The notes below the pieces were generated by a model, which made no database searches, was not told the origin of the DNA, and saw nothing but the letters and a program-made list of their open reading frames with translations. From Capsaspora owczarzaki ATCC 30864 (taxonomy: Eukaryota > Opisthokonta > Filasterea), in the NCBI RefSeq assembly GCF_000151315.2, contig NW_011887306.1, positions 280,549-344,548 on the forward strand: 64,000 nucleotides of DNA, read 5' to 3'. Positions 28,861 through 58,808 of this stretch are shown in pieces. The first letter of the stretch is position 1; every line of letters starts with the position of its first letter. The position numbers and the translations under genes were made by a program.

Positions 28861-28986
28861 ATGCCGCCACCACTAGGGAACAACTCGGACTGCAAGTTCG
28901 AAATCCGCGAAGTGTGGGAGTACAACTTGGAGGAGGAGATGGCAGTAATACGCGATGTTGTGCAGGACTATCCGTACCTGGCAATG
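28861..28986 (+). CDS. CNOT7: CAF1/POP2 (CNOT7/8) deadenylase, isolated first exon
   Basis: Forty-two codons with the family N-terminus ([20 protein letters not shown], then DYPYLAM) and a GTAACG donor in phase 0. CAF1 is the DEDD-type 3'-exonuclease of the CCR4-NOT complex that removes poly(A) tails from mRNA. The expected next exon, beginning DTEFPGVV, is not downstream on this strand: it lies at 32099-31906 on the minus strand. The exon is cut off from the rest of the gene by the left arm of the inverted duplication starting at 29166. The T-rich run ending about 60 bp upstream is the probable promoter or 5' UTR. Confidence 0.9.
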
Positions 28987-29165
28987 GTAACGCTCTCTCT
29001 CTTTCGCTCTCACTCGCTTTCCCCCCCCCCGCCCCCTTCCGCCTCCGTCCAAAGCACTTCATTCTCATCTTCGTCCAGTTGAACTCTGTGCTTTCGTGTT
29101 CAGTGACTCAAGCGAAGGGGGGGGGGAAAGACAGTTTCCCTCTTTTTTTTTTTTCTCGTTCGTTT

Positions 29166-30562
29166 CAAGCGATGGCTGCCCCTCGAGTCCAACCCCGAAG
29201 TGCGTTTGTTTTCGTGCTTCATTACGTGCTTCATGGCGAATTGCTGGATGGAGAGAGTGAGAGTGAGAGAGCGGGATTCGCATCGTAAGTCAAAGCCTCA
29301 CTGTTGAACTAACTCGTCCTTCTGTTTGGTGAATCCAGGTTATGAACAAGGTACAACACCCAAACCACATGCATCTCCAACACATCATCCTCTCCAGGGC
29401 GCCAACGTTTCTGGGCTGGGTCGCCAGACAGACAGACAGAGAGCGAGTGATGACGAAGGCCTTTATGCTGTTCTCGATTGGCGTTTACGTCACTGCTCCC
29501 AACGCTGATCCGCTCACATCCACATCGGATGGCGCGATTCGTCATCCTTCAATTCTGATTGACTGATTGTTGTTGATTGTTGTTGATTGTTGTTGGTAGT
29601 TTGTCTGGTCGCTGGGCCTGCCGCGAAAGTGGGGCTTCACGGACGTCTACGGCCTCGATGCAGACCTCCTCGCAATGGTCCCGCAGCCCGTCGTGGCAGT
29701 CATGATGCTCTTCCCTGTCACCAAGCCACACGAAGACCACCGCGTCGCAGAGGACGAGCGCATCCAGGCAGAAGGGCAAACACTCAGCCCCAATGTCTAC
29801 CATCTGAAGCAGACCATTGCAAACGCCTGTGGCACTGTTGGCGTGCTTCATGCTGTTGCAAACAACAAGGACCGATTGGAACTCCGTATGTACCTTGACA
29901 GCGGGATGAGGCGTTGCTCTCAAAGCGAGAGTTTTGCCGATCTGACCTGAACTCTTCGTTGTTGTTGTTGCCGGTTTTCTCTGGTTGTCTGGACACACAG
30001 CGGAGGACTGCTATCTGCGCAGGTTTGTGGAGAACGGCTCCGCCAAGACGTCAGAGGAGCGCGGTGAGCAGCTCGAGGTCAGCGAAGAGGTGACCAATGT
30101 GCACGAAGAGTGTGCCAACGAGGGCCAGACTGAGGTAGGGGCTTTTCGCTTTGTAGAGTTGGAGAGTATTGTACAAAGTGTTGTTTGTGATTCTGCATGT
30201 GCTTTTGTTGCCTGTCAAGTGGTTGGATGGTGTTTGAACAAGGGTGTCTGATCTCGTCGTTTAACTTTGCACCTTTCCAACCCTCCCCCCTTTTTATGGT
30301 TCCCCTTTCTTTGGCTCCCCTCCAACAGACACCCTCGCTTGACGATGACACCTTTTTGCACTTTGTGTGCTTGATCGAGCGTGATGGCTTCCTGTACGAG
30401 CTGGATGGCCGCAAGTCCTTCCCGATCAACCACGGCCCGTCCAGCCAGCAAACCCTGCTCGAAGACGCCGCCAAGGTCGTCCAAAAGTTCATGGATCGCG
30501 ACACTTCCCAGGTGCAGTTCAACATGATTGCCTTGACCGAGTTGCCTCAGGACGCCGAGTGA
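29166..30562 (+). pseudogene. UCHL3: 5'-truncated second copy of the UCH-L3-type gene
   Basis: Exons 29339-29350 (12 nt), 29600-29885, 30001-30134 and 30329-30562 match the complete copy at 34968-33528, but the copy begins in the middle of exon 1 at the arm boundary, so its start codon and first 14 or so codons are missing. The remaining part still encodes the catalytic Cys (NACGTVG), His (FLHFVCL) and Asp (LYELDGR). Upstream lies the CAF1 first intron, so any transcript from the CAF1 promoter would run into it; I see no evidence that this produces a protein. Confidence 0.85.
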
Positions 30563-31737
30563 TGTTTGCTGGTGCTTTTGTTTTTCTGTTCTTTTTTTTT
30601 TTTTTTCCCTTTGTGATGTTGCTTGTTTCCACCTGTGTGTAAAGCTTTGTTGTGTTGAATGTCAATTGAACAAATCAGCTATCTTTCAACGTTTTCTTCT
30701 TTTTTTTGTTTGAAAATAAGAGTCAATGGCATCCAGATCACAAAAAGTCGACAAAAAGAAACCCAAACGAACAAAAAGGTCTTACATGTAAACGCACAGC
30801 AGACCAGAACAAGAAGCAACAAGGACATCATTCAACGGGAGGGGTGGGAGAAGCAAAAAAACTGAGGAGAGCCCAGACAGCAGACACATGTGTGCATCTT
30901 GAAAACTCGCCCAGTTTTTAGTACTTTCGTGCATTCACGACATTGTTGGCCATGACCGTGCTTGGAGACTGAGGGACGGCGTTACTGAACGGCTTGGCAC
31001 CGCCGTTGAGGCCGTAGTTGCTGGGTGGTGTGCCGGGAGCACTGCTGGCGGCGTAGGTGCCGTTGCTGCCTGCTCCAGGGGTGGTTGAAGGTGAGTATGG
31101 GGCTCCGCTGGTGGCGGGCGTGGTGGCGCTTGATGCTGGCCCTTCCAACTTGCTGAGGTAGGATGTGCCGAGACCGTAAATGTGGCCTTGGAACTTGGAG
31201 TCGTCAATGTTGTCCTCAAAGAAGAGCTGTCGCATCTTGAAGAAGGCGAACGCGGTCAGCATGCTGTCGCTGCCCGCTTGGTGTTGAGGGCCGTATCGCT
31301 CCACCTCCAGGTCGTCGCTGACGTCTTGCAGGCCGCCCTTCAAGTGCTTGCAGCTTCGCATCATGAACTTGATGTCATAAATGCAGGGGAAGTACAAGTA
31401 CAACAAGGAGAAAAAGTCTGATTCTTCCGTTGGCAGCGCGGTGCACGTTAGAACCTTGAGCAAGTATGCAAAGTCGTATCCACTGCGAGCGGAAGAGCAA
31501 GGGGCGGGTGTGAAAGAAGTGGGGAAGGCAGCAAGAGTGGCGCAAATGGGAAAAAGAAAGGGAAAAAAGTCAGACACGTGGGTGCAAGAGTGCCACACTT
31601 TGTCGAGTATGTCAAAATATCATCAACAAACCTGTGGAAGGAAATCCATTTGATTTGATCGTTCAGCACGATGCCAGAGGGAATGAGCAACTCGGCAAAG
31701 TGGTGGACATCAATGCCGTCGGCTTCAAACCGCATGA
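29166..31737 (+). repeat. Left arm of 2.57-kb inverted duplication
   Basis: Reverse complement of 32351-34924. The coordinate sum is 64,090 over the outer part and 64,088 over the inner part; the 2-bp step is a length difference in an A/T run near 30854 versus 33230. Translations differ at only two places (Arg/Lys near 29397 and Pro/Leu near 31037), so identity is at least about 99.8%. The arm starts inside UCH exon 1 and ends inside CAF1 exon 3, so the boundaries respect no gene structure. The spacer is 31738-32350 (613 bp). Confidence 0.95.
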
Positions 31738-32099
31738 AATTGATGCCAGAGCGTGTCAACAAGTCGATCGAATCCTGTGCGTATGTATCCTCTCTGTCAA
31801 GTGCAAGAACATAGCCCCCAAAGAGCAAATGGCCATGTCAGTGTCAGGTGCAGGCCATCCAAATCTCAAAATGAAACAAAAAAAAAAGTGCCTGTTCCAA
31901 CTCACGATAGGCTGAACTTGAAGTTAAACTGCCATGTGCACACGTCTTTTGGTGTGTTTCCGTGCTCGTCAGTGAAGGTGATGCCCAGCTGGATCAGCTT
32001 GAGACGGTCAACGTTGCAGCGGAGGGTCTGGAACGTGAACTCGGCCTGCGATCGGAAGTTGCCCACTGGTTTTACAACCACGCCGGGGAACTCTGTGTC
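30918..32099 (-). CDS. CNOT7: CAF1/POP2 deadenylase, exons 2-4 (inverted, no first exon)
   Basis: Exons 32099-31906 (starting DTEFPGVV, with the first catalytic Asp/Glu pair), 31793-31632 (EDTYAQDSIDLL, ADGIDVHHFAELL) and 31482-30918 (SGYDFAYLLKVL, LKGGLQDV, IGPQHQAGSDS-like ERYGPQHQAGSDSMLT) are mutually in phase and, with the exon at 28861-28986, would make a full 348-residue CAF1. Exon 1 is absent upstream on this strand and points the other way 3 kb away. The C-terminus carries a Ser/Thr/Pro-rich tail not typical of animal CNOT7. The arrangement is best explained by an inversion of the segment starting in intron 1. Confidence 0.9.
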
Positions 32100-32350
32100 C
32101 TATTGTTTTTGATTTCGTTTTCGGATTGTTGCAACAATTGCAAGTGACAAAGAGTCAGACGATGTGTATGGCACAGCAAAGTGATGAGTAAGCAATGGGC
32201 GATCAGTTTTGACTTGCGTTTGTCCACTCCGTCTCTCCACTCCCCCCCCCCTCCACGCCAACGCGATTCTCGTCAGTGATCATCCATTTTCAGCATCAAC
32301 GTCCAGTGACCATCCCAATGGACAGTCGTGCTGGAATCGCTTAAAGAGCC
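31738..32350. other. Unique spacer between the inverted arms
   Basis: Single-copy 613 bp. It contains, on the minus strand, the 3' part of CAF1 intron 1 (to 32100), exon 2 and the start of exon 3. Because it is unique, it fixes the orientation of the rearrangement relative to the CAF1 first exon. Confidence 0.9.
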
Positions 32351-33170
32351 TCATGCGGTTTGAAGCCGACGGCATTGATGTCCACCACTTTGCCGAGTTG
32401 CTCATTCCCTCTGGCATCGTGCTGAACGATCAAATCAAATGGATTTCCTTCCACAGGTTTGTTGATGATATTTTGACATACTCGACAAAGTGTGGCACTC
32501 TTGCACCCACGTGTCTGACTTTTTTCCCTTTCTTTTTCCCATTTGCGCCACTCTTGCTGCCTTCCCCACTTCTTTCACACCCGCCCCTTGCTCTTCCGCT
32601 CGCAGTGGATACGACTTTGCATACTTGCTCAAGGTTCTAACGTGCACCGCGCTGCCAACGGAAGAATCAGACTTTTTCTCCTTGTTGTACTTGTACTTCC
32701 CCTGCATTTATGACATCAAGTTCATGATGCGAAGCTGCAAGCACTTGAAGGGCGGCCTGCAAGACGTCAGCGACGACCTGGAGGTGGAGCGATACGGCCC
32801 TCAACACCAAGCGGGCAGCGACAGCATGCTGACCGCGTTCGCCTTCTTCAAGATGCGACAGCTCTTCTTTGAGGACAACATTGACGACTCCAAGTTCCAA
32901 GGCCACATTTACGGTCTCGGCACATCCTACCTCAGCAAGTTGGAAGGGCCAGCATCAAGCGCCACCACGCCCGCCACCAGCGGAGCCCCATACTCACCTT
33001 CAACCACCCCTGGAGCAGGCAGCAACGGCACCTACGCCGCCAGCAGTGCTCTCGGCACACCACCCAGCAACTACGGCCTCAACGGCGGTGCCAAGCCGTT
33101 CAGTAACGCCGTCCCTCAGTCTCCAAGCACGGTCATGGCCAACAATGTCGTGAATGCACGAAAGTACTAA
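32351..33170 (+). pseudogene. CNOT7: CAF1 fragment: tail of exon 3 and exon 4 (second copy)
   Basis: Partial exon 3 at 32351-32456 and full exon 4 at 32606-33170, same strand as the isolated first exon at 28861 but lacking exon 2 and the beginning of exon 3. It differs from the other copy by one Leu for Pro in the C-terminal tail. It lacks the first catalytic motif, so it cannot make an active deadenylase as it stands. It ends convergently with UCH. Confidence 0.9.
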
Positions 33171-34924
33171 AAACTGGGCGAGTTTTCAAGATGCACACAT
33201 TCGTCTGCTGTCTGGGCTCTCCTCAGTTTTTTTTTGCTTCTCCCACCCCTCCCGTTGAATGATGTCCTTGTTGCTTCTTGTTCTGGTCTGCTGTGCGTTT
33301 ACATGTAAGACCTTTTTGTTCGTTTGGGTTTCTTTTTGTCGACTTTTTGTGATCTGGATGCCATTGACTCTTATTTTCAAACAAAAAAAAGAAGAAAACG
33401 TTGAAAGATAGCTGATTTGTTCAATTGACATTCAACACAACAAAGCTTTACACACAGGTGGAAACAAGCAACATCACAAAGGGAAAAAAAAAAAAAAAGA
33501 ACAGAAAAACAAAAGCACCAGCAAACATCACTCGGCGTCCTGAGGCAACTCGGTCAAGGCAATCATGTTGAACTGCACCTGGGAAGTGTCGCGATCCATG
33601 AACTTTTGGACGACCTTGGCGGCGTCTTCGAGCAGGGTTTGCTGGCTGGACGGGCCGTGGTTGATCGGGAAGGACTTGCGGCCATCCAGCTCGTACAGGA
33701 AGCCATCACGCTCGATCAAGCACACAAAGTGCAAAAAGGTGTCATCGTCAAGCGAGGGTGTCTGTTGGAGGGGAGCCAAAGAAAGGGGAACCATAAAAAG
33801 GGGGGAGGGTTGGAAAGGTGCAAAGTTAAACGACGAGATCAGACACCCTTGTTCAAACACCATCCAACCACTTGACAGGCAACAAAAGCACATGCAGAAT
33901 CACAAACAACACTTTGTACAATACTCTCCAACTCTACAAAGCGAAAAGCCCCTACCTCAGTCTGGCCCTCGTTGGCACACTCTTCGTGCACATTGGTCAC
34001 CTCTTCGCTGACCTCGAGCTGCTCACCGCGCTCCTCTGACGTCTTGGCGGAGCCGTTCTCCACAAACCTGCGCAGATAGCAGTCCTCCGCTGTGTGTCCA
34101 GACAACCAGAGAAAACCGGCAACAACAACAACGAAGAGTTCAGGTCAGATCGGCAAAACTCTCGCTTTGAGAGCAACGCCTCATCCCGCTGTCAAGGTAC
34201 ATACGGAGTTCCAATCGGTCCTTGTTGTTTGCAACAGCATGAAGCACGCCAACAGTGCCACAGGCGTTTGCAATGGTCTGCTTCAGATGGTAGACATTGG
34301 GGCTGAGTGTTTGCCCTTCTGCCTGGATGCGCTCGTCCTCTGCGACGCGGTGGTCTTCGTGTGGCTTGGTGACAGGGAAGAGCATCATGACTGCCACGAC
34401 GGGCTGCGGGACCATTGCGAGGAGGTCTGCATCGAGGCCGTAGACGTCCGTGAAGCCCCACTTTCGCGGCAGGCCCAGCGACCAGACAAACTACCAACAA
34501 CAATCAACAACAATCAACAACAATCAGTCAATCAGAATTGAAGGATGACGAATCGCGCCATCCGATGTGGATGTGAGCGGATCAGCGTTGGGAGCAGTGA
34601 CGTAAACGCCAATCGAGAACAGCATAAAGGCCTTCGTCATCACTCGCTCTCTGTCTGTCTGTCTGGCGACCCAGCCCAGAAACGTTGGCGCCTTGGAGAG
34701 GATGATGTGTTGGAGATGCATGTGGTTTGGGTGTTGTACCTTGTTCATAACCTGGATTCACCAAACAGAAGGACGAGTTAGTTCAACAGTGAGGCTTTGA
34801 CTTACGATGCGAATCCCGCTCTCTCACTCTCACTCTCTCCATCCAGCAATTCGCCATGAAGCACGTAATGAAGCACGAAAACAAACGCACTTCGGGGTTG
34901 GACTCGAGGGGCAGCCATCGCTTG
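32351..34924 (-). repeat. Right arm of 2.57-kb inverted duplication
   Basis: Reverse complement of the left arm. It holds the tail of CAF1 exon 3, exon 4, the CAF1-UCH 3' spacer and the UCH gene up to mid exon 1. Sequence to the right continues UCH exon 1 without a break, so this arm appears to be the copy in ancestral context on its outer side. Confidence 0.95.
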
Positions 34925-34968
34925 TTGCCAGACGGAGTTGGGCGAAAGTCGCTGGTAGACTCAGACAT
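33528..34968 (-). CDS. UCHL3: Ubiquitin C-terminal hydrolase, UCH-L1/L3 type
   Basis: Complete copy, five exons: 34968-34891, 34751-34740 (only 12 nt, VMNK), 34490-34205, 34089-33956 and 33761-33528; 247 residues, near the usual ~230. Exon 1 encodes NKRWLPLESNPE, matching the RWLPLEANPEV start of UCHL3; then VYGLDADLLAMVPQPV, the nucleophile in QTIANACGTVG, the general base in LHFVCLIERDG and Asp in LYELDGRKSFPINHGP. It cleaves small adducts and peptides from the C-terminus of ubiquitin in the cytosol. The microexon is required to keep the conserved NPEV-N-F spacing. The promoter lies in the 397-bp divergent gap with the Arf-like gene. Confidence 0.93.
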
Positions 34969-37206: not shown

Positions 37207-37610
37207 CCAGAGATTCTGTTCCCGGGACAATTATTGAGCGATTGAAAAGACCAAAAAGAAAAACAAAGAAATGAAAAAGGAAAAGAGAAAAACCAAATAA
37301 GAAATTTACAGCTTGATTTGTCGGACTTGCATTGTTCTGTCCAAAAGATTTGAAAAGACATGTAATCGGAAAATACAACACACGTGAATGCATGACCATT
37401 GTTCCCTCCATACTTTGCTCAGCAATGCCAAAACATGTTTGCAAAAGCGCGCTCACAGTCAATTTTTGGTTTGTTTTTTGTTGGGCGAGTTTCTAAATGC
37501 GATGATCAATGATCACGACGGATGCATGTGCAAATGCCACACTGTATTATGCTCAATGTGTCTCAGTTCCCAATTCTCAGTCTGTCTCAGTATCTCTTTG
37601 GTTTTGTCCA

Positions 37611-40146
37611 ATGCTGGCTCGATTCCATGCGACGAGTCGCTCTGCCGTCGCATTGACTGCTAATGCCGCTGCTTCTACGACGACGACCACTATTGCTGCT
37701 ACTAATGCTGCTGCTGGTACTTCCAAGTTGATCAGCAGTGCGCTTCCAGCACAGACTCCATCTCAATCTCAGTCCATTCCAACCCTGCGTCAGGCCAAGG
37801 CGCAGTCCCACCTGCACTCTCAGTATCAAGCTCGATGGATCCACTCGCACAGTGCACCGCATCACCATCCAGCAGCAGCAGCAGCAGCAGCAGCAGCGCT
37901 CCGCGCGTACAACGCACTGACTCGCAGCGTCGCTCCACTGCTCAGTCCCGACAGCAACAGCAACAGTCATACTCGTAACGATCTCACTCCAAACACTCTC
38001 TCGTGGTACATTTGCGGTCCAACCGTGTACGACGAGGCGCATCTGGGCCACGCAAGGTACACAGACAAGTTTTCTCAGACGTACAAATGTGGAAATGGCG
38101 TCCACAGCTTGTTCCAACAGAATGATCATGCATGTGCAGCTGACAACGTATGCTATTTTCTCTCTTTCTCGTTCTTCCCCCATCCAATCTACAGCTGCTA
38201 TGTTCGGTTTGACATCATTCGCAGGATTCTCACCGATCGAGCCGGTCTGCGCGTCTTCCAACTGATGGGAATGACGGATATTGACGACAAGATCATTGCG
38301 AAAGCAGCCAGCACCAACAGGTCTCACTCTGAGGTGGCGCGTCAATTCGAAGAGAGCTTTGTCCAGGACATGGCTGTACTTGGTGTCCGTTCTTGTTCTT
38401 GTGCGTTGTGACAAACCTCTCGCTCGGTCCAAGCACCTCACACCCTTTTTGTGTGTGTGTGTGCGTGTGGATGTATCTTGCTCTTTGAAACAGGTTCGGC
38501 CGCCAGACGCCATTTCTCGCGTCACGGAAAGCATTCCGGCTATTCAGCAGTTCATTACCAACATTATCGAGCGCGGGTTTGGGTATACCGCGAGTGACGG
38601 AAGCGTCTACTTTGACACGCAAGCGTTCGGCAGTCGCTACGGCAAACTCCGACCGAGTGCTACCGCCGACAAGTCGAGCGCAGAAGCGACCGAGCCTGCC
38701 GACAGCAACAAGCGCTCGCCCCGCGATTTTGCACTCTGGAAAGCAACAAAGTCTGCAAGTGAACCCGGGTACCCCTCGCCCTTCTCCCAAGGGCTCGGGC
38801 GTCCAGGCTGGCATATTGAATGCTCTGCCATGTGCAGGTATGGGAGTTTTTGGTAGTTGTCAGGGACGAACTTTTGTCATGTTGCTGAGATTCAGCTTTT
38901 TTTTTTTTGTTTTTGTTTGTGTTTTTTTGATTTTTTTTCTGCCATCATGATTGCAGCGCTGTCTTTGGACAGCATCTTGACATCCACTCTGGTGGAATCG
39001 ATCTGCTCTTTCCCCACCACGAAAACGAGATTGCACAATGCGAAGCGCATCACGGGGTGGATCAATGGGCCCACCATTTCTGGCACACTGGTACCGCTCG
39101 ACGTCGTTCACTCTGGCAATGTACTTCCGAGTGTACTAGACACTGGTCGCTCACTCCATGCCCTTCTCGCTGTGTCCTAGGTCACTTGCTCATCAACAAG
39201 GAAAAAATGTCCAAGAGCTTGAACAATTTTGTCACCATCAAAGTACGCACACACGCTTGCACTGCCGCAGAGCTCGTCTCGTCTTTGTACTCACGCACCG
39301 ACTCTACAGGACTTCCTCCGCAGCTACACTTCCAACCAGTTTCGTCTCTTTTGCTTGTTGACAAACTATCGACAGTCCGTCCATTTTGACGACAAAACCA
39401 TGCAAGGAGCCATAGCGCTGGAGCGTAAACTCGCTCAGTTTGGTGCCGTGTTGCAGACTGCTGGGGCTACCGGAGTGGCTTGGGACAGCCCGGCTACGCG
39501 CGCCTGGGGCACTTCCGAGGTGGCTTTGCGAGATCGGTGCGTGTTCTTTGCCAAGAAATGTTGTTGTGCCAGTCTTTGTGTTTTTTTGGAAAGCTTACCT
39601 GTTCTCCTGTTGCTTCTTTGGACAGAATCCTGACCTTTGAAGCAACGGTGGATGCCGCCCTCTGCAATGACTTTGACACGTCAACCGCAATGCAAGCGGC
39701 GATGACACTGGTGCACCACACCTATCTCTATCTCGATGCAGTACAAGGCCAGCAACCGAACAAGCTATTAGTAGGCAGTGTGGCGCGAGGCATCGATGGC
39801 CTACTCGTCTTGTTCGGATGCCAGTCTCTATTGTCGTCCCCGACAACAGCCGCGTCGGGGGCCGAGGCAGCGGCCCTGGCGTCTGCGTTTGCCGATTTCC
39901 GAGCGCAAGTCCGCAAAGTCGCAATGGCCAATCCTAAAGCAAACAAAGAGTTGTTCCAGCTTTGCGATCAAGCGCGAGCAGAGACATTCCCCAAGCTGGG
40001 CTTTGAGTTGCAGGTATGTCAAAGAGTTGCTTGACTCGATTGCTGCGCTTCGCTTTGTTGTTTCGCTGTCTCACAAATTGTTGGGAGTACTGCAGGACAA
40101 CAAGTCAGGGTGGCTGCTTTCCAAGCTCGCCAAGGCGCAACCGTGA
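37611..40146 (+). CDS. CARS2: Cysteinyl-tRNA synthetase, probably mitochondrial
   Basis: Eight exons: 37611-38056, 38195-38384, 38494-38837, 38957-39090, 39181-39242, 39310-39536, 39626-40013 and 40096-40146; 613 residues with all phases consistent. Class I signatures are present: [17 protein letters not shown] (HIGH-type), [24 protein letters not shown], the zinc-ligand region [18 protein letters not shown] and KMSKSLNNF. It charges tRNA-Cys with cysteine. The first ~125 residues are Ala/Ser/Thr/Gln-rich with an early basic [15 protein letters not shown], which fits a mitochondrial presequence; the compact size also suits the CARS2 type rather than the longer cytosolic enzyme. A CAG/Ala repeat sits near 37870-37897. 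Confidence 0.93.
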
Positions 40147-53911: not shown

Positions 53912-54898
53912 NNNNNNNNNNNNNNNNNNNNNNNNNNNNNNNNNNNNNNNNNNNNNNNNNNNNNNNNNNNNNNNNNNNNNNNNNNNNNNNNNNNNNNNNN
54001 NNNNNNNNNNNNNNNNNNNNNNNNNNNNNNNNNNNNNNNNNNNNNNNNNNNNNNNNNNNNNNNNNNNNNNNNNNNNNNNNNNNNNNNNNNNNNNNNNNNN
54101 NNNNNNNNNNNNNNNNNNNNNNNNNNNNNNNNNNNNNNNNNNNNNNNNNNNNNNNNNNNNNNNNNNNNNNNNNNNNNNNNNNNNNNNNNNNNNNNNNNNN
54201 NNNNNNNNNNNNNNNNNNNNNNNNNNNNNNNNNNNNNNNNNNNNNNNNNNNNNNNNNNNNNNNNNNNNNNNNNNNNNNNNNNNNNNNNNNNNNNNNNNNN
54301 NNNNNNNNNNNNNNNNNNNNNNNNNNNNNNNNNNNNNNNNNNNNNNNNNNNNNNNNNNNNNNNNNNNNNNNNNNNNNNNNNNNNNNNNNNNNNNNNNNNN
54401 NNNNNNNNNNNNNNNNNNNNNNNNNNNNNNNNNNNNNNNNNNNNNNNNNNNNNNNNNNNNNNNNNNNNNNNNNNNNNNNNNNNNNNNNNNNNNNNNNNNN
54501 NNNNNNNNNNNNNNNNNNNNNNNNNNNNNNNNNNNNNNNNNNNNNNNNNNNNNNNNNNNNNNNNNNNNNNNNNNNNNNNNNNNNNNNNNNNNNNNNNNNN
54601 NNNNNNNNNNNNNNNNNNNNNNNNNNNNNNNNNNNNNNNNNNNNNNNNNNNNNNNNNNNNNNNNNNNNNNNNNNNNNNNNNNNNNNNNNNNNNNNNNNNN
54701 NNNNNNNNNNNNNNNNNNNNNNNNNNNNNNNNNNNNNNNNNNNNNNNNNNNNNNNNNNNNNNNNNNNNNNNNNNNNNNNNNNNNNNNNNNNNNNNNNNNN
54801 NNNNNNNNNNNNNNNNNNNNNNNNNNNNNNNNNNNNNNNNNNNNNNNNNNNNNNNNNNNNNNNNNNNNNNNNNNNNNNNNNNNNNNNNNNNNNNNNNN
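53912..54898. other. Assembly gap (987 N)
   Basis: Unknown bases. It probably hides the rest of LSM4 (+) and the 3' flank of the LRR gene (-). Confidence 1.
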
Positions 54899-54990
54899 CA
54901 ATCCACGCGATGTTGCGGGAAGGGTTGTACCCGAATGCATTGCGGTCACACAGAGATTTTTTACGGGTAGTGTTCGACATAGCCAACATA
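54899..54990 (-). other. Displaced 3' end of the LRR gene
   Basis: Read on the minus strand and continuing from the TA target, this flank would add VGYVEHYP and a TAA stop to the host frame after ESLY. It is now separated from the gene by the Tc1 element, and the stop used is in the transposon end. Confidence 0.7.
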
Positions 54991-55107
54991 CTATCCCGAT
55001 CATTAAATTTCGACCCCCCCCTCTTTTTTTCACTTTTTCGCCCTCCCTGGGACCTGTGTTGCTTTCCGTCTCGCCCCGCGGAATGTTCATTCATGGTACG
55101 GTGTACC
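54991..55107 (+). repeat. Left terminal inverted repeat of Tc1 element
   Basis: 117 bp, pairs with 56519-56633. It includes a C8 and T8 run and ends at GGTACGGTGTACC, itself a short palindrome-like motif. Confidence 0.93.
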
Positions 55108-55244
55108 GAACGTCTGATGAACACCGGGAGCGGGGGTTGTGAGTCATATCAGAGCAGCAGCGAGCAAAATAAAAAATATAAGGAAACTCAAAAAATTCAC
55201 TTTTCCCGCCCAAATTTTGGTTTGGGTTCAGTCTTTTTGTGCGC

Positions 55245-56354
55245 ATGACTCGCACACGCAGTCAGTCCACGTCCCGCGTGGCTCCCAGACAGCCCCCGGT
55301 ATGGCTGCGTCCAACTTCACCAAAAAGACCGCTGCCCGTGCTGGACAAGATGCCCAGGGAGGTCGTCCGCGGTCAAGTGCTCGCGTTGCGAAATGCTGGC
55401 CTCTCCTACAACAAGATCGCCACCCAGCTTCACCTCCCACGTTCTACAGTGATCAGCATCACCCAACGTTTCTCGGGAAGGGCGACGACGAGCGACAGCC
55501 CCCGCCCCGGTCGCCCCAGCAAGCTCAAGTCATTTCACCGCAACAACATTGTAGCACAGATCCTCCTCGATGAGTCCGACACCGCACCCGAAGTGGCCGC
55601 CACTATGCGCACATTGTCCAAAGTTCGTGTCTCTCCATGCACGATAAGAAGGGTGCTGCATGGTGCAGGACTTGTCAACGGAGCGAAGGTCAAAAAAGCC
55701 CTCTTGAAAGAGACACACAAAGAGCGACGCTTGGCCTTTGCACTCGCTCATCAGCATTGGACCGTCGATGACTGGCTGAGGGTCGTCTTCTCTGACGAGA
55801 CTGCTCTCTATCTCTGCAAGAACAACAACTGTGGACCGGTTGGCGAAACGTTGACCGATCGATGCGTGCAGGGCACGGTCAAGTTCGGCGGTGGCCATAT
55901 CAATGTTTGGGGCGCCATCTCTCGTTTCGGAATTTCGCTTTTCTGCGAGGTCGGCGACGTCATGAACGGCGACACCTACCTCTCAGTTTTGGAGAGCGAG
56001 TTGCTAGCAAGCATTCGCGTGTGGAACAACAAAAACGAGATGATTTTCATGCATGACAATGCCCCTTGTCACAAAAGAAAAGATGTGGCGAAGTGGTTCG
56101 AAACCAATCAGATCACCGTCCTGGACTGGCCTGCGAACTCTCCCGACCTCAACCCCATCGAAAATGCGTGGAACATGGTCAAGAACAAGATCTACCAGGA
56201 GAGGGAGATCAAGAGCAAGGCCGCGTTGTGGGAACGCTTCCAAGCGGTCTACGAAGAAGTGCTCACGCCAGAGGTCTGCCGCGATCTCATTTCATCGATG
56301 CCGCGCCGCATTCAAGCTGTGATAGATGCCAATGGTGGTTATACCAAGTACTGA
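55245..56354 (+). CDS. Tc1-type DD34E transposase
   Basis: 369 residues, uninterrupted. A helix-turn-helix lies at about residues 40-75 (GQVLALRNAGLSYNKIATQL), then a GRPSKL GRPR-like hook, a second helical DNA-binding region (TIRRVLHGAGLV), and the DDE catalytic core: VVFSDET, FMHDNAPCHK and the final glutamate in DLNPIENAWNMVK, about 34 residues after the second aspartate. Tc1 transposases cut and paste the element at TA sites. An in-frame GTG lies two codons upstream, but the ATG at 55245 is the natural start. No frameshift or stop is seen, so the element may be autonomous. Confidence 0.95.
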   Translation: MTRTRSQSTSRVAPRQPPVWLRPTSPKRPLPVLDKMPREVVRGQVLALRNAGLSYNKIATQLHLPRSTVISITQRFSGRATTSDSPRPGRPSKLKSFHRNNIVAQILLDESDTAPEVAATMRTLSKVRVSPCTIRRVLHGAGLVNGAKVKKALLKETHKERRLAFALAHQHWTVDDWLRVVFSDETALYLCKNNNCGPVGETLTDRCVQGTVKFGGGHINVWGAISRFGISLFCEVGDVMNGDTYLSVLESELLASIRVWNNKNEMIFMHDNAPCHKRKDVAKWFETNQITVLDWPANSPDLNPIENAWNMVKNKIYQEREIKSKAALWERFQAVYEEVLTPEVCRDLISSMPRRIQAVIDANGGYTKY

Positions 56355-56518
56355 AGTGGAGCGAAGGCGCTGCGACACGTTGTTTGTGTGCCATGTAATG
56401 CTTTGTGAAAATTGGGCAAAAAAGCCGCTCTTTTTCTGTTTTTTTGAGTTTTCATTTTTGTCTGTTCTCGCTTCGAATCTTAACTCCCAGCCCGCTGCTT
56501 CACTTCTAAAATGTGTCT

Positions 56519-56633
56519 GGTACACTGTACCATGAATGAACATTCCGCGGGCGAGACGGAAAGCAACACAGGTCCCAGGGAGGGCGAAAAAGTGAAAAAA
56601 AGAGGGGGGGTCGAAATTTAATGATCGGGATAG
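56519..56633 (-). repeat. Right terminal inverted repeat of Tc1 element
   Basis: 115 bp, the reverse complement of the left end apart from one substitution and small length differences in homopolymers. Confidence 0.93.
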
Positions 56634-58808
56634 TAGAGCGATTCCAGCACCACCTCGGCTTGAGATATGGAGGGTTGAACTTGAACTCCCCACCCCTCGC
56701 GCATTTGTCGAAGGATGGTCGCTGGCAGGACCATCACAACCTGAATGTCGTAACCGATGACAGCTGGTTTCACAGTACGCTTGTACCGAACAGCACCTTG
56801 CTCATCTCGGACAATCAAATCGACAACGGGATTAGTTGTGGCATCGAAACAGCCCGGCCAGTTACGAACCACTTGAATTGCTTTCACGCGGATCGAACTT
56901 CCGTTGCTGCCCCGAGGCACTGTAACATGCAGATCCTGCAAATGCGGCAACACCTGTTCTCGTTTGATGCCCTGCACGCCTTGCCAGTACTGCGCCTCGT
57001 TCATAATGAGTTCAGCAATCTCGGCTGGTAGTGCTGGTAGCGCTGCTGATTGATCCTCCAGCTCTTGTCTGCTGGTCAGCAAGCAAAGTACTGTCTGAAC
57101 ATCGTCGGCGGTTGCTAATCGTGGATGTATGGAGAATGCAAGAGGGTGAAACTGGTTGCTGAGGCTGTGCAACGAACAATTACAGTAAGTGGGCAGTCAG
57201 CACTACCATTCATGGTTCGAGGAACATTGGCAGAGGGGGGGGGAGATGGCGCTCTCATGTTCAAGTTCCAAAATGGACACCTACGTAGGATATGCCGACC
57301 CGGTGACTGAAAGAAATGCCCTGTCGATCATTTGAATACCAGCAATGCCCATGCAATTAAAAAGTAGGCTGTTGTCCCAATGGGGTGAGCAGGATGCACA
57401 AGCTAGCAAGATCTGGACCCGAAGTTCTGGACCCGAAGTTCTGGACCCTGGCTCAATGTCCGAGACGAGCAAAACGCACAGCAACTTACTCGAGGTGTCT
57501 CAATGTGATATTTTGGGTGATCGCTCGAGCAAACGCAATTGCTCCAGCATCGCCAATCCGATTCATGTCCAAACTGTTAACGCCCTAGCTCAGTGAATAC
57601 TCTGAATGCTCCTCTGCTGGATGACCCACTCGTGGATGCTTCAGCAACAGTGGGATGCCTTACACGAGCGTAATCACATTTGTGTTCACTTCGAGCGCCC
57701 GAGCCAACGCCTTCGCTCCAGCATTGCCAATCCAGTTCCGCTCAAAACTGCCCGTCTCATCCGTCAGTGAGCGCTCTGAACGCCCTCTGCTGCAACCACC
57801 CACATCACATGCATCCGTCCAAGCGAGCTGCTTTACTTGAGCTCGGTCAGCGTCTTGTTCCCCTTGAGTGGCTCAGCAATTGCCTTCGCTCCGGCATCGC
57901 CTATCTGATTGTTGTGCAGACTGTTCATCCCCTCCATCGGTGAGTACTGAATGCTATCTGGCTGAGTCACCCACTCACAAGCATCAGTCAAAGTGAGATG
58001 CTTTACTCAAGATAAGTCACCGTCGTGTTCACTTTGAGTGCTTCGGCGATCGCCTGCGCTCCAGCATCGCCAATCTGATTGCTACTCAGACTGTCCCCCC
58101 CCCCAGTGAGCTTGCGATGCTCTCTACTAGATCACGCACTCCAATGCATCATTCAAAGTGAGATGCCTTACTCGAGATATTCCAGCGTCTTGTTCACCTT
58201 GAGTGCCTCGGCAATTGCCTTCGCACCCACTTCGCCAATCAGATTCCGGTGCAGACTGTCATTCCCCTCCATCGGTGAGTTGAAACCGTCAACTCACATG
58301 CATCAGTCAAAGTGAGATCTCTCACCTGAGCCGGATCAGCGTCGTGCCCACTTTGAGTGCCTCAGCAATCGCCTGCGCTCCAGCATCGCCAACCCTACAA
58401 CCAGCCAGGCTGTCCACGTCCCAATCTCTCAATGAGCACTCCAAGCAGCCCACTGCTAAAGTCGCCCACTCACATGCATCTGCTCAAAGTGAGATGCCTT
58501 ACGCGAGATCAGCCATCGTCTTGCTCACCTTGAGCGCTTCAGCAATCACTTGCGCTTCAGCAGCGCCAATCTGATCGTCCATCGCACTGTCCCACATCCC
58601 CCCTCCCATTTTCGTCAACACATGCAGTCCGACTCGAACTGTCATCACACAGTTCCAGTACACACACGGCTTGGTTCTTCACCTGCAGAAGCGACCCTGG
58701 TCCCTGACTTTGAGATACAACTGGCGCTGTTGTGCAGTCATCACAAACGACAGCATTGCAGCTGGAAAAGGCTCCCCTTTGAAAAATGGACTGCCTTTTC
58801 ACCATCAT
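56618..58808 (-). CDS. Leucine-rich-repeat protein with F-box-like C-terminal region
   Basis: Seven consecutive 84-nt exons (58586-58503, 58409-58326, 58255-58172, 58090-58007, 57920-57837, 57747-57664, 57573-57490) each encode one 28-residue ribonuclease-inhibitor-type LRR of the form LxxNQIGDAGAKAIAEALKVN. A degenerate eighth repeat starts at 57368. A last exon (from about 57163 or 57121) carries ALPALPAEIAELIMNEAQYW, F-box-like in its P-EI-I-A-YW pattern, and a beta-rich tail. The stop codon at 56618-56620 lies inside the Tc1 end. A candidate first exon begins near 58808 (MMVKRQSIFQRGAF). RI-type LRR arrays bind protein partners; with an F-box this could be a ubiquitin-ligase adaptor, but that is inference. 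The exact first and last splice sites are not settled. Confidence 0.75.
57490..58586 (-). repeat. Tandem array of seven LRR exon-intron units
   Basis: Units of about 154-177 bp. Every exon is 84 nt in the same phase, and intron 5' halves are also alike (GTAAGGCATCTCACTTTGA type, then TGATGCATGTGAGTGGG). Whole exon-intron cassettes were therefore duplicated, not just coding repeats. Confidence 0.9.

Follow-up and report, generated by a model that had tools for sequence, protein, structure and literature searches.

The intron 22 inversion of F8, known from haemophilia A, turns a segment of ~0.6 Mb and involves the int22h duplicons, one of which sits in intron 22. The staggered-break inversions O4 and O8 of Drosophila carry inverted duplications of breakpoint sequence, and in O8 the duplication is described as coming from one breakpoint only (PMC5080602). 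The human Y-chromosome palindrome P6 has near-identical arms around a unique spacer (an arm of 104,230 bp and a spacer of 45,959 bp were compared between human and chimpanzee), is common to chimpanzee and gorilla, and undergoes arm-to-arm conversion and, rarely, inversion (PMC3723533).

The locus described here lies in a 64,000-nucleotide stretch of the Capsaspora owczarzaki genome (the window) and is a rearrangement of this already known kind, to be compared with the F8 intron 22 inversion. Its arms are near-identical, one of them sits in an intron, and on paper a turn of the spacer toggles the deadenylase gene CAF1 between split and complete, as in the Inv22 type of F8. Unlike F8, the turned segment measures 613 bp, the second arm carries the gene's own 3′ part, and a single orientation is known, that of the assembly. 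The likeness to O4 and O8 lies in the inverted duplication, which here exceeds the unique inverted part and is known from the one displayed order. P6 is far larger; the present locus is built on a 2.6-kb scale and interrupts a gene.

The inverted repeat and its ancestral order

Comparison of the window with itself recovered one long inverted repeat, in which positions 29166–31737 (left arm, 2,572 bp) match 34924–32351 (right arm, 32351–34924, 2,574 bp) over 2,574 columns at 99.77% identity. An ungapped search recovered the same arms, broken into two pieces, and placed their inner ends 613 nt apart. A 2.57-kb inverted repeat of 99.8% identity cannot have arisen by chance. The preliminary description had given these arms, as reverse complements around a 613-bp spacer, exactly to the base. 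Its count of two substitutions and a 2-bp indel between them was right for the indel, an A7/A9 run at 30855, but not for the substitutions: base-by-base alignment revealed four mismatched bases at three places, 29397/34693 (G/A), 30886–30887/33202–33201 (AC/GA) and 31036/33052 (G/A). The sole coding difference that results is one Pro/Leu in the C-terminal tail of CAF1, and identity between the arms ends abruptly on both sides. In the genome assembly (27.46 Mb, 29 contigs) the arms matched nowhere else, and the spacer (31738–32350) gave a single match, with no second copy.

The surrounding 264 kb (218,778 non-N bases, a sample of less than 1% of the genome) provided a measure of how unusual this structure is locally. 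Five inverted pairs spanning 100 or more columns were listed there, and the 2.57-kb repeat is the only long pair among them with close arms; the others are one 1.67-kb pair whose members lie ~42 kb apart and three pairs of 118–128 bp. No further fold-back of this type was listed among those bases. The same neighbourhood contains four runs of N, of 987 to 29,148 bp. A terminal-repeat element is evident in the region at 54986–56639, away from the arms.

The gene content of the repeat indicates which order came first. We write A for the left flank, X for the right arm, s for the reverse complement of the spacer and B for the right flank, so that the displayed order is A-rc(X)-rc(s)-X-B. The boundary 31737/31738 is continuous within CAF1 exon 3, such that the reverse complement of the spacer followed by X restores an uninterrupted exon; likewise, 34924/34925 is continuous within exon 1 of the neighbouring ubiquitin C-terminal hydrolase (UCH) gene, and X followed by B gives that exon whole. 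X in the right arm is thus in its ancestral position, adjoining B. An ancestral order A-s-X-B, as the preliminary description had also proposed, is well supported by this exon continuity, on the assumption that A and s adjoined without loss or gain of sequence between them. In that order, CAF1 intron 1 measures 430 bp. Two junctions are novel. At the first (29165/29166), A is joined to rc(X), and the word AAGCGAT (7 bp) is shared near the two ancestral ends; at the second (32350/32351), the spacer is joined to X, and the longest word in common is 4 bp.

CAF1, UCH and the orientation of the spacer

We modelled the CAF1 exons with GT-AG introns. Exon 1 (28861–28986, plus strand) comprises 42 codons, ends at a phase-0 donor (GTAACG), is in frame with exon 2 and matches CNOT7 from residue 13. 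The spacer holds exon 2, which covers the DTEFPG region (31906–32099, minus strand; exon model and protein search), along with the initial 56 bp of exon 3. The complete exon 3 (31632–31793, minus strand) crosses into the left arm, which supplies its last 106 bp, and is followed there by the copy of exon 4 that is joined to the spacer exons (30918–31482, minus strand). The right arm carries a second copy of the exon 3 tail (32351–32456, plus strand; exon model and protein search) and a second exon 4 with its stop codon (32606–33170, plus strand); both exon 4 copies were identified by Pfam, exon model and protein search, and the exon 4 frame passes the Pfam cut-off for PF04857 by itself. Joined in gene order, the exons encode 348 amino acids, of which residues 13–272 align to CNOT7 residues 10–271 (E=1.6e-115), including the DTEFPG region. 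The joined protein, a CNOT7/8-type deadenylase, scored 389 bits against CNOT7, 319 against the SPCC18.06c protein and 188 against POP2.

The UCH gene (peptidase C12) is complete on the minus strand at 33528–34968, with five exons, 247 amino acids and four of four introns of the GT-AG type. A second copy on the plus strand (29339–30562) retains exons 2–5, open, and lacks a start codon: its sequence opens with the last base of codon 15, so that codons 1–14 and the two preceding bases of that codon are missing. Genome-wide, peptidase C12 gave six matches, four at this locus and two on contig 2. Exon models thereby bore out the layout first read from the sequence, in which CAF1 exon 1 lies on the plus strand, exons 2–4 on the minus strand and the duplicate exon 3 tail and exon 4 on the plus strand, with UCH whole on the minus strand and startless on the plus strand. 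Both copies keep the CAF1 and UCH exons open, and those of CAF1 are without decay. CAF1 exon 1 precedes UCH exon 2 in the displayed order, and because the former ends and the latter starts in phase 0, an in-frame splice product is possible. Such splicing could yield a predicted chimera of CAF1 residues 1–42 and UCH, 263 amino acids in length.

We asked whether the genome encodes another CNOT7-type gene. PF04857 had three matches genome-wide. Two are the exon 4 copies described above; the third, on contig 16 (C16:521003–522481), was rejected as a second CNOT7-type gene because its frame aligns with solved structures of PARN (best E=3.5e-31). Since family searches may overlook a gene divided into small exons, we also searched the whole genome with the 348-residue joined protein. 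Six of the seven matches fell at this locus, and the seventh was a weak match on contig 2 to the C-terminal part (residues 199–342; E 0.0097, 29% identity). Protein and PF04857 searches thus found no other CNOT7-type gene in the 29 contigs, which may be incomplete. Exon 1 had no second copy in the assembly, and the other 12 of its 13 matches were 49–72 bp long and coincided with a T-rich stretch of the query. An uninterrupted CAF1 is accordingly absent as assembled: its exon-bearing pieces match only here, out of order, across those possibly incomplete contigs, and the other gene with a CAF1 domain is PARN. We found no paper linking Capsaspora, CCR4-NOT and deadenylase.

The orientation of the 613-bp spacer decides whether CAF1 looks dead. 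The same script that found no four-exon CAF1 model in the displayed order found one when the spacer alone was turned. In the resulting order, A-rc(X)-s-X-B, CAF1 exons 1–4 follow one another on the plus strand, all introns are GT-AG (3,002, 112 and 149 bp), and the 348-residue product is the very one that the ancestral order encodes; only intron 1 differs, having grown from 430 to 3,002 bp. To judge from the sequence of the arms, the locus has two possible isomers that could be interconverted by recombination between them. Markers that distinguish the arms divide the path from outer edge to spacer into distances of 231, 1,458, 31, 150 and 701 bp. The 1,458-bp interval is blank, and reads shorter than ~1.5 kb therefore cannot tie the spacer to its flank; orientation would consequently rest on mate pairs or long reads, and the displayed, gene-breaking orientation may indeed be backed by them. 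The initial claim that no intact CAF1 is present is true of the assembled order, but loss of the gene is not established, because two isomers are possible, short reads cannot orient the spacer, and a turn of the spacer alone restores CAF1. Loss of a core deadenylase is a tempting reading, but this assembly does not justify it.

Origin of the duplication

The reading that we tentatively favour, with confidence close to even, places a genuine inverted duplication within CAF1 intron 1 and takes the displayed orientation of the spacer to be the gene-breaking one. X, whose 2.57 kb reach from the latter part of CAF1 exon 3 into UCH exon 1, would have been copied in inverted orientation 613 bp upstream, into intron 1 of its convergent neighbour CAF1, to produce a spaced inverted repeat. 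As the arms are 99.8% identical, the spacer could then be turned by homologous recombination, or be mis-oriented by an assembler. In the orientation A-rc(X)-s-X-B, CAF1 would be complete with a 3.0-kb intron 1, and in A-rc(X)-rc(s)-X-B exon 1 would be cut off from exons 2–4. Insertion of the inverted copy followed by a spacer turn would take two steps, with CAF1 readable until the turn. No other CNOT7-type gene was found, which makes selection for keeping one working copy plausible, and we infer that the duplication is probably real and may be older than the turn, and that a CAF1-competent molecule may be present in cells. For human P6, three inversions are reported among 83 phased chromosomes (1.36–1.72e-5 per generation), against 56 conversion events (PMC3723533). 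Conversion homogenises arms, and so their similarity does not date the event. If real, the locus would let spacer inversion between inverted repeats be tested in a compact natural system of a eukaryote, read out through the integrity of a gene; its interest is modest unless both orientations coexist.

We regard it as somewhat unlikely that the inverted copy is an artefact of assembly or library preparation, in which chimeric reads or merged haplotypes falsely duplicated a true locus A-s-X-B. The assembly appears gapped, with four N runs in 264 kb, some of which may not be true gaps, and no unbroken CNOT7-type gene was found elsewhere in it, as expected if the true allele had been overwritten. 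A re-assembly of the Capsaspora genome reports that, for some genes, chimeric haplotypes were phased by hand (PMC12221973). However, the two junctions are sharp and free of overlap (shared words of 7 and 4 bp), and each would need its own chimeric read. Both end at the limits of one and the same X, as two independent chimeric reads would rarely do. Copied reads would, moreover, not differ at four bases and an indel, and no second fold-back is listed in the 264 kb.

A one-step staggered-break inversion, or repair by two template switches, is in our view somewhat unlikely as the origin. Either event would have turned s and X together and duplicated X, leaving CAF1 truly split, whether fixed or heterozygous. 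The displayed order has an inverted duplication of breakpoint sequence flanking the inverted segment, as staggered-break inversions require; one staggered and one blunt break predict this order exactly, in fewer events than a duplication and a turn, and the duplication in Drosophila O8 is likewise described as coming from one breakpoint only (PMC5080602). Two template switches yield the same order, and the 7-bp word near the first junction is compatible with guidance by microhomology. That figure is weak: 439 of 20,000 random breakpoint pairs (~2%) were as good, and we rejected the word as proof of template switching and treat it as suggestive only. Against a single inversion, the stagger, at 2.57 kb, would have four times the length of the unique inverted part (0.61 kb), and the event would split the only CNOT7-type gene found, yet its exons are without decay. 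The staggered-break model put forward in the preliminary description therefore fits in its geometry, but a one-step inversion as the event is not established.

An extension of the favoured reading, inverted duplication in intron 1, is that the spacer flips back and forth in living cells, such that a population would mix CAF1-on and CAF1-off cells, the latter possibly with the exon 1–UCH chimera. We consider this very improbable; were it so, the locus would act as a contingency switch that controls a core mRNA deadenylase and needs no recombinase. Least probable of all is that a mobile element contributed the arms as its terminal repeats, or that they border a programmed cassette inverted by a recombinase of its own: inverted repeats do flank a segment whose turn switches the order of CAF1 exons, but the arms consist of sequence from host genes, the exons of CAF1 and UCH, and had no match outside this locus, the genome search found no dispersed arm copies, and no recombinase or transposase gene was found in 13 frames of at least 80 amino acids from the left arm and spacer (some extending slightly beyond), for which Pfam gave CAF1 and peptidase C12 only. 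This reading is largely refuted by gene content, and a mobile-element origin was rejected on that ground, on the single-locus match and on the position of the terminal-repeat element elsewhere (54986–56639). The G+C content of the neighbourhood, over 219 kb, was 52.6%.

CAF1-related sequences elsewhere in the genome

The CAF1 nuclease domain was also found in a PARN-type gene (locus L003, G000:C16:519503-523981), in which it covers positions 1-320 of the profile. When the genome was searched with the CAF1 protein, a weak match was observed at G000:C2:452105-452530 (E = 0.0097; 29% over residues 199-342). This match is enclosed by a frame of 1,030 amino acids and may reflect low-complexity similarity.

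A transposon-like element and N runs

Self-comparison of the window and its neighbouring sequence identified an element of about 1.65 kb (54986-56639) that is bounded by terminal inverted repeats, each roughly 118 bp long, and adjoins a 987-bp run of N (53912-54898). A second copy, inverted and matching at 98.9%, lies at G000:C15:378810-380473, and the two look like a pair of DNA transposons. Beyond the window, the adjacent 200 kb of its contig that were analysed hold three more N runs, of 10,480, 4,607 and 29,148 bp. Within the window, self-comparison also showed two overlapping direct repeats at 57541-58546, spaced by about 340 bp and 73% alike.

5S rRNA matches and a partial tRNA synthetase domain

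Matches to 5S rRNA were scattered through the genome rather than confined to a single array. At least 25 share the same score, loci L032 and L033 among them; they are spread over 12 contigs and occur on either strand. This count is a lower bound, with 47 of 1,021 candidates scored. The catalytic domain of class I (C) tRNA synthetases (PF01406) is represented in part by a frame at 37506-38411.
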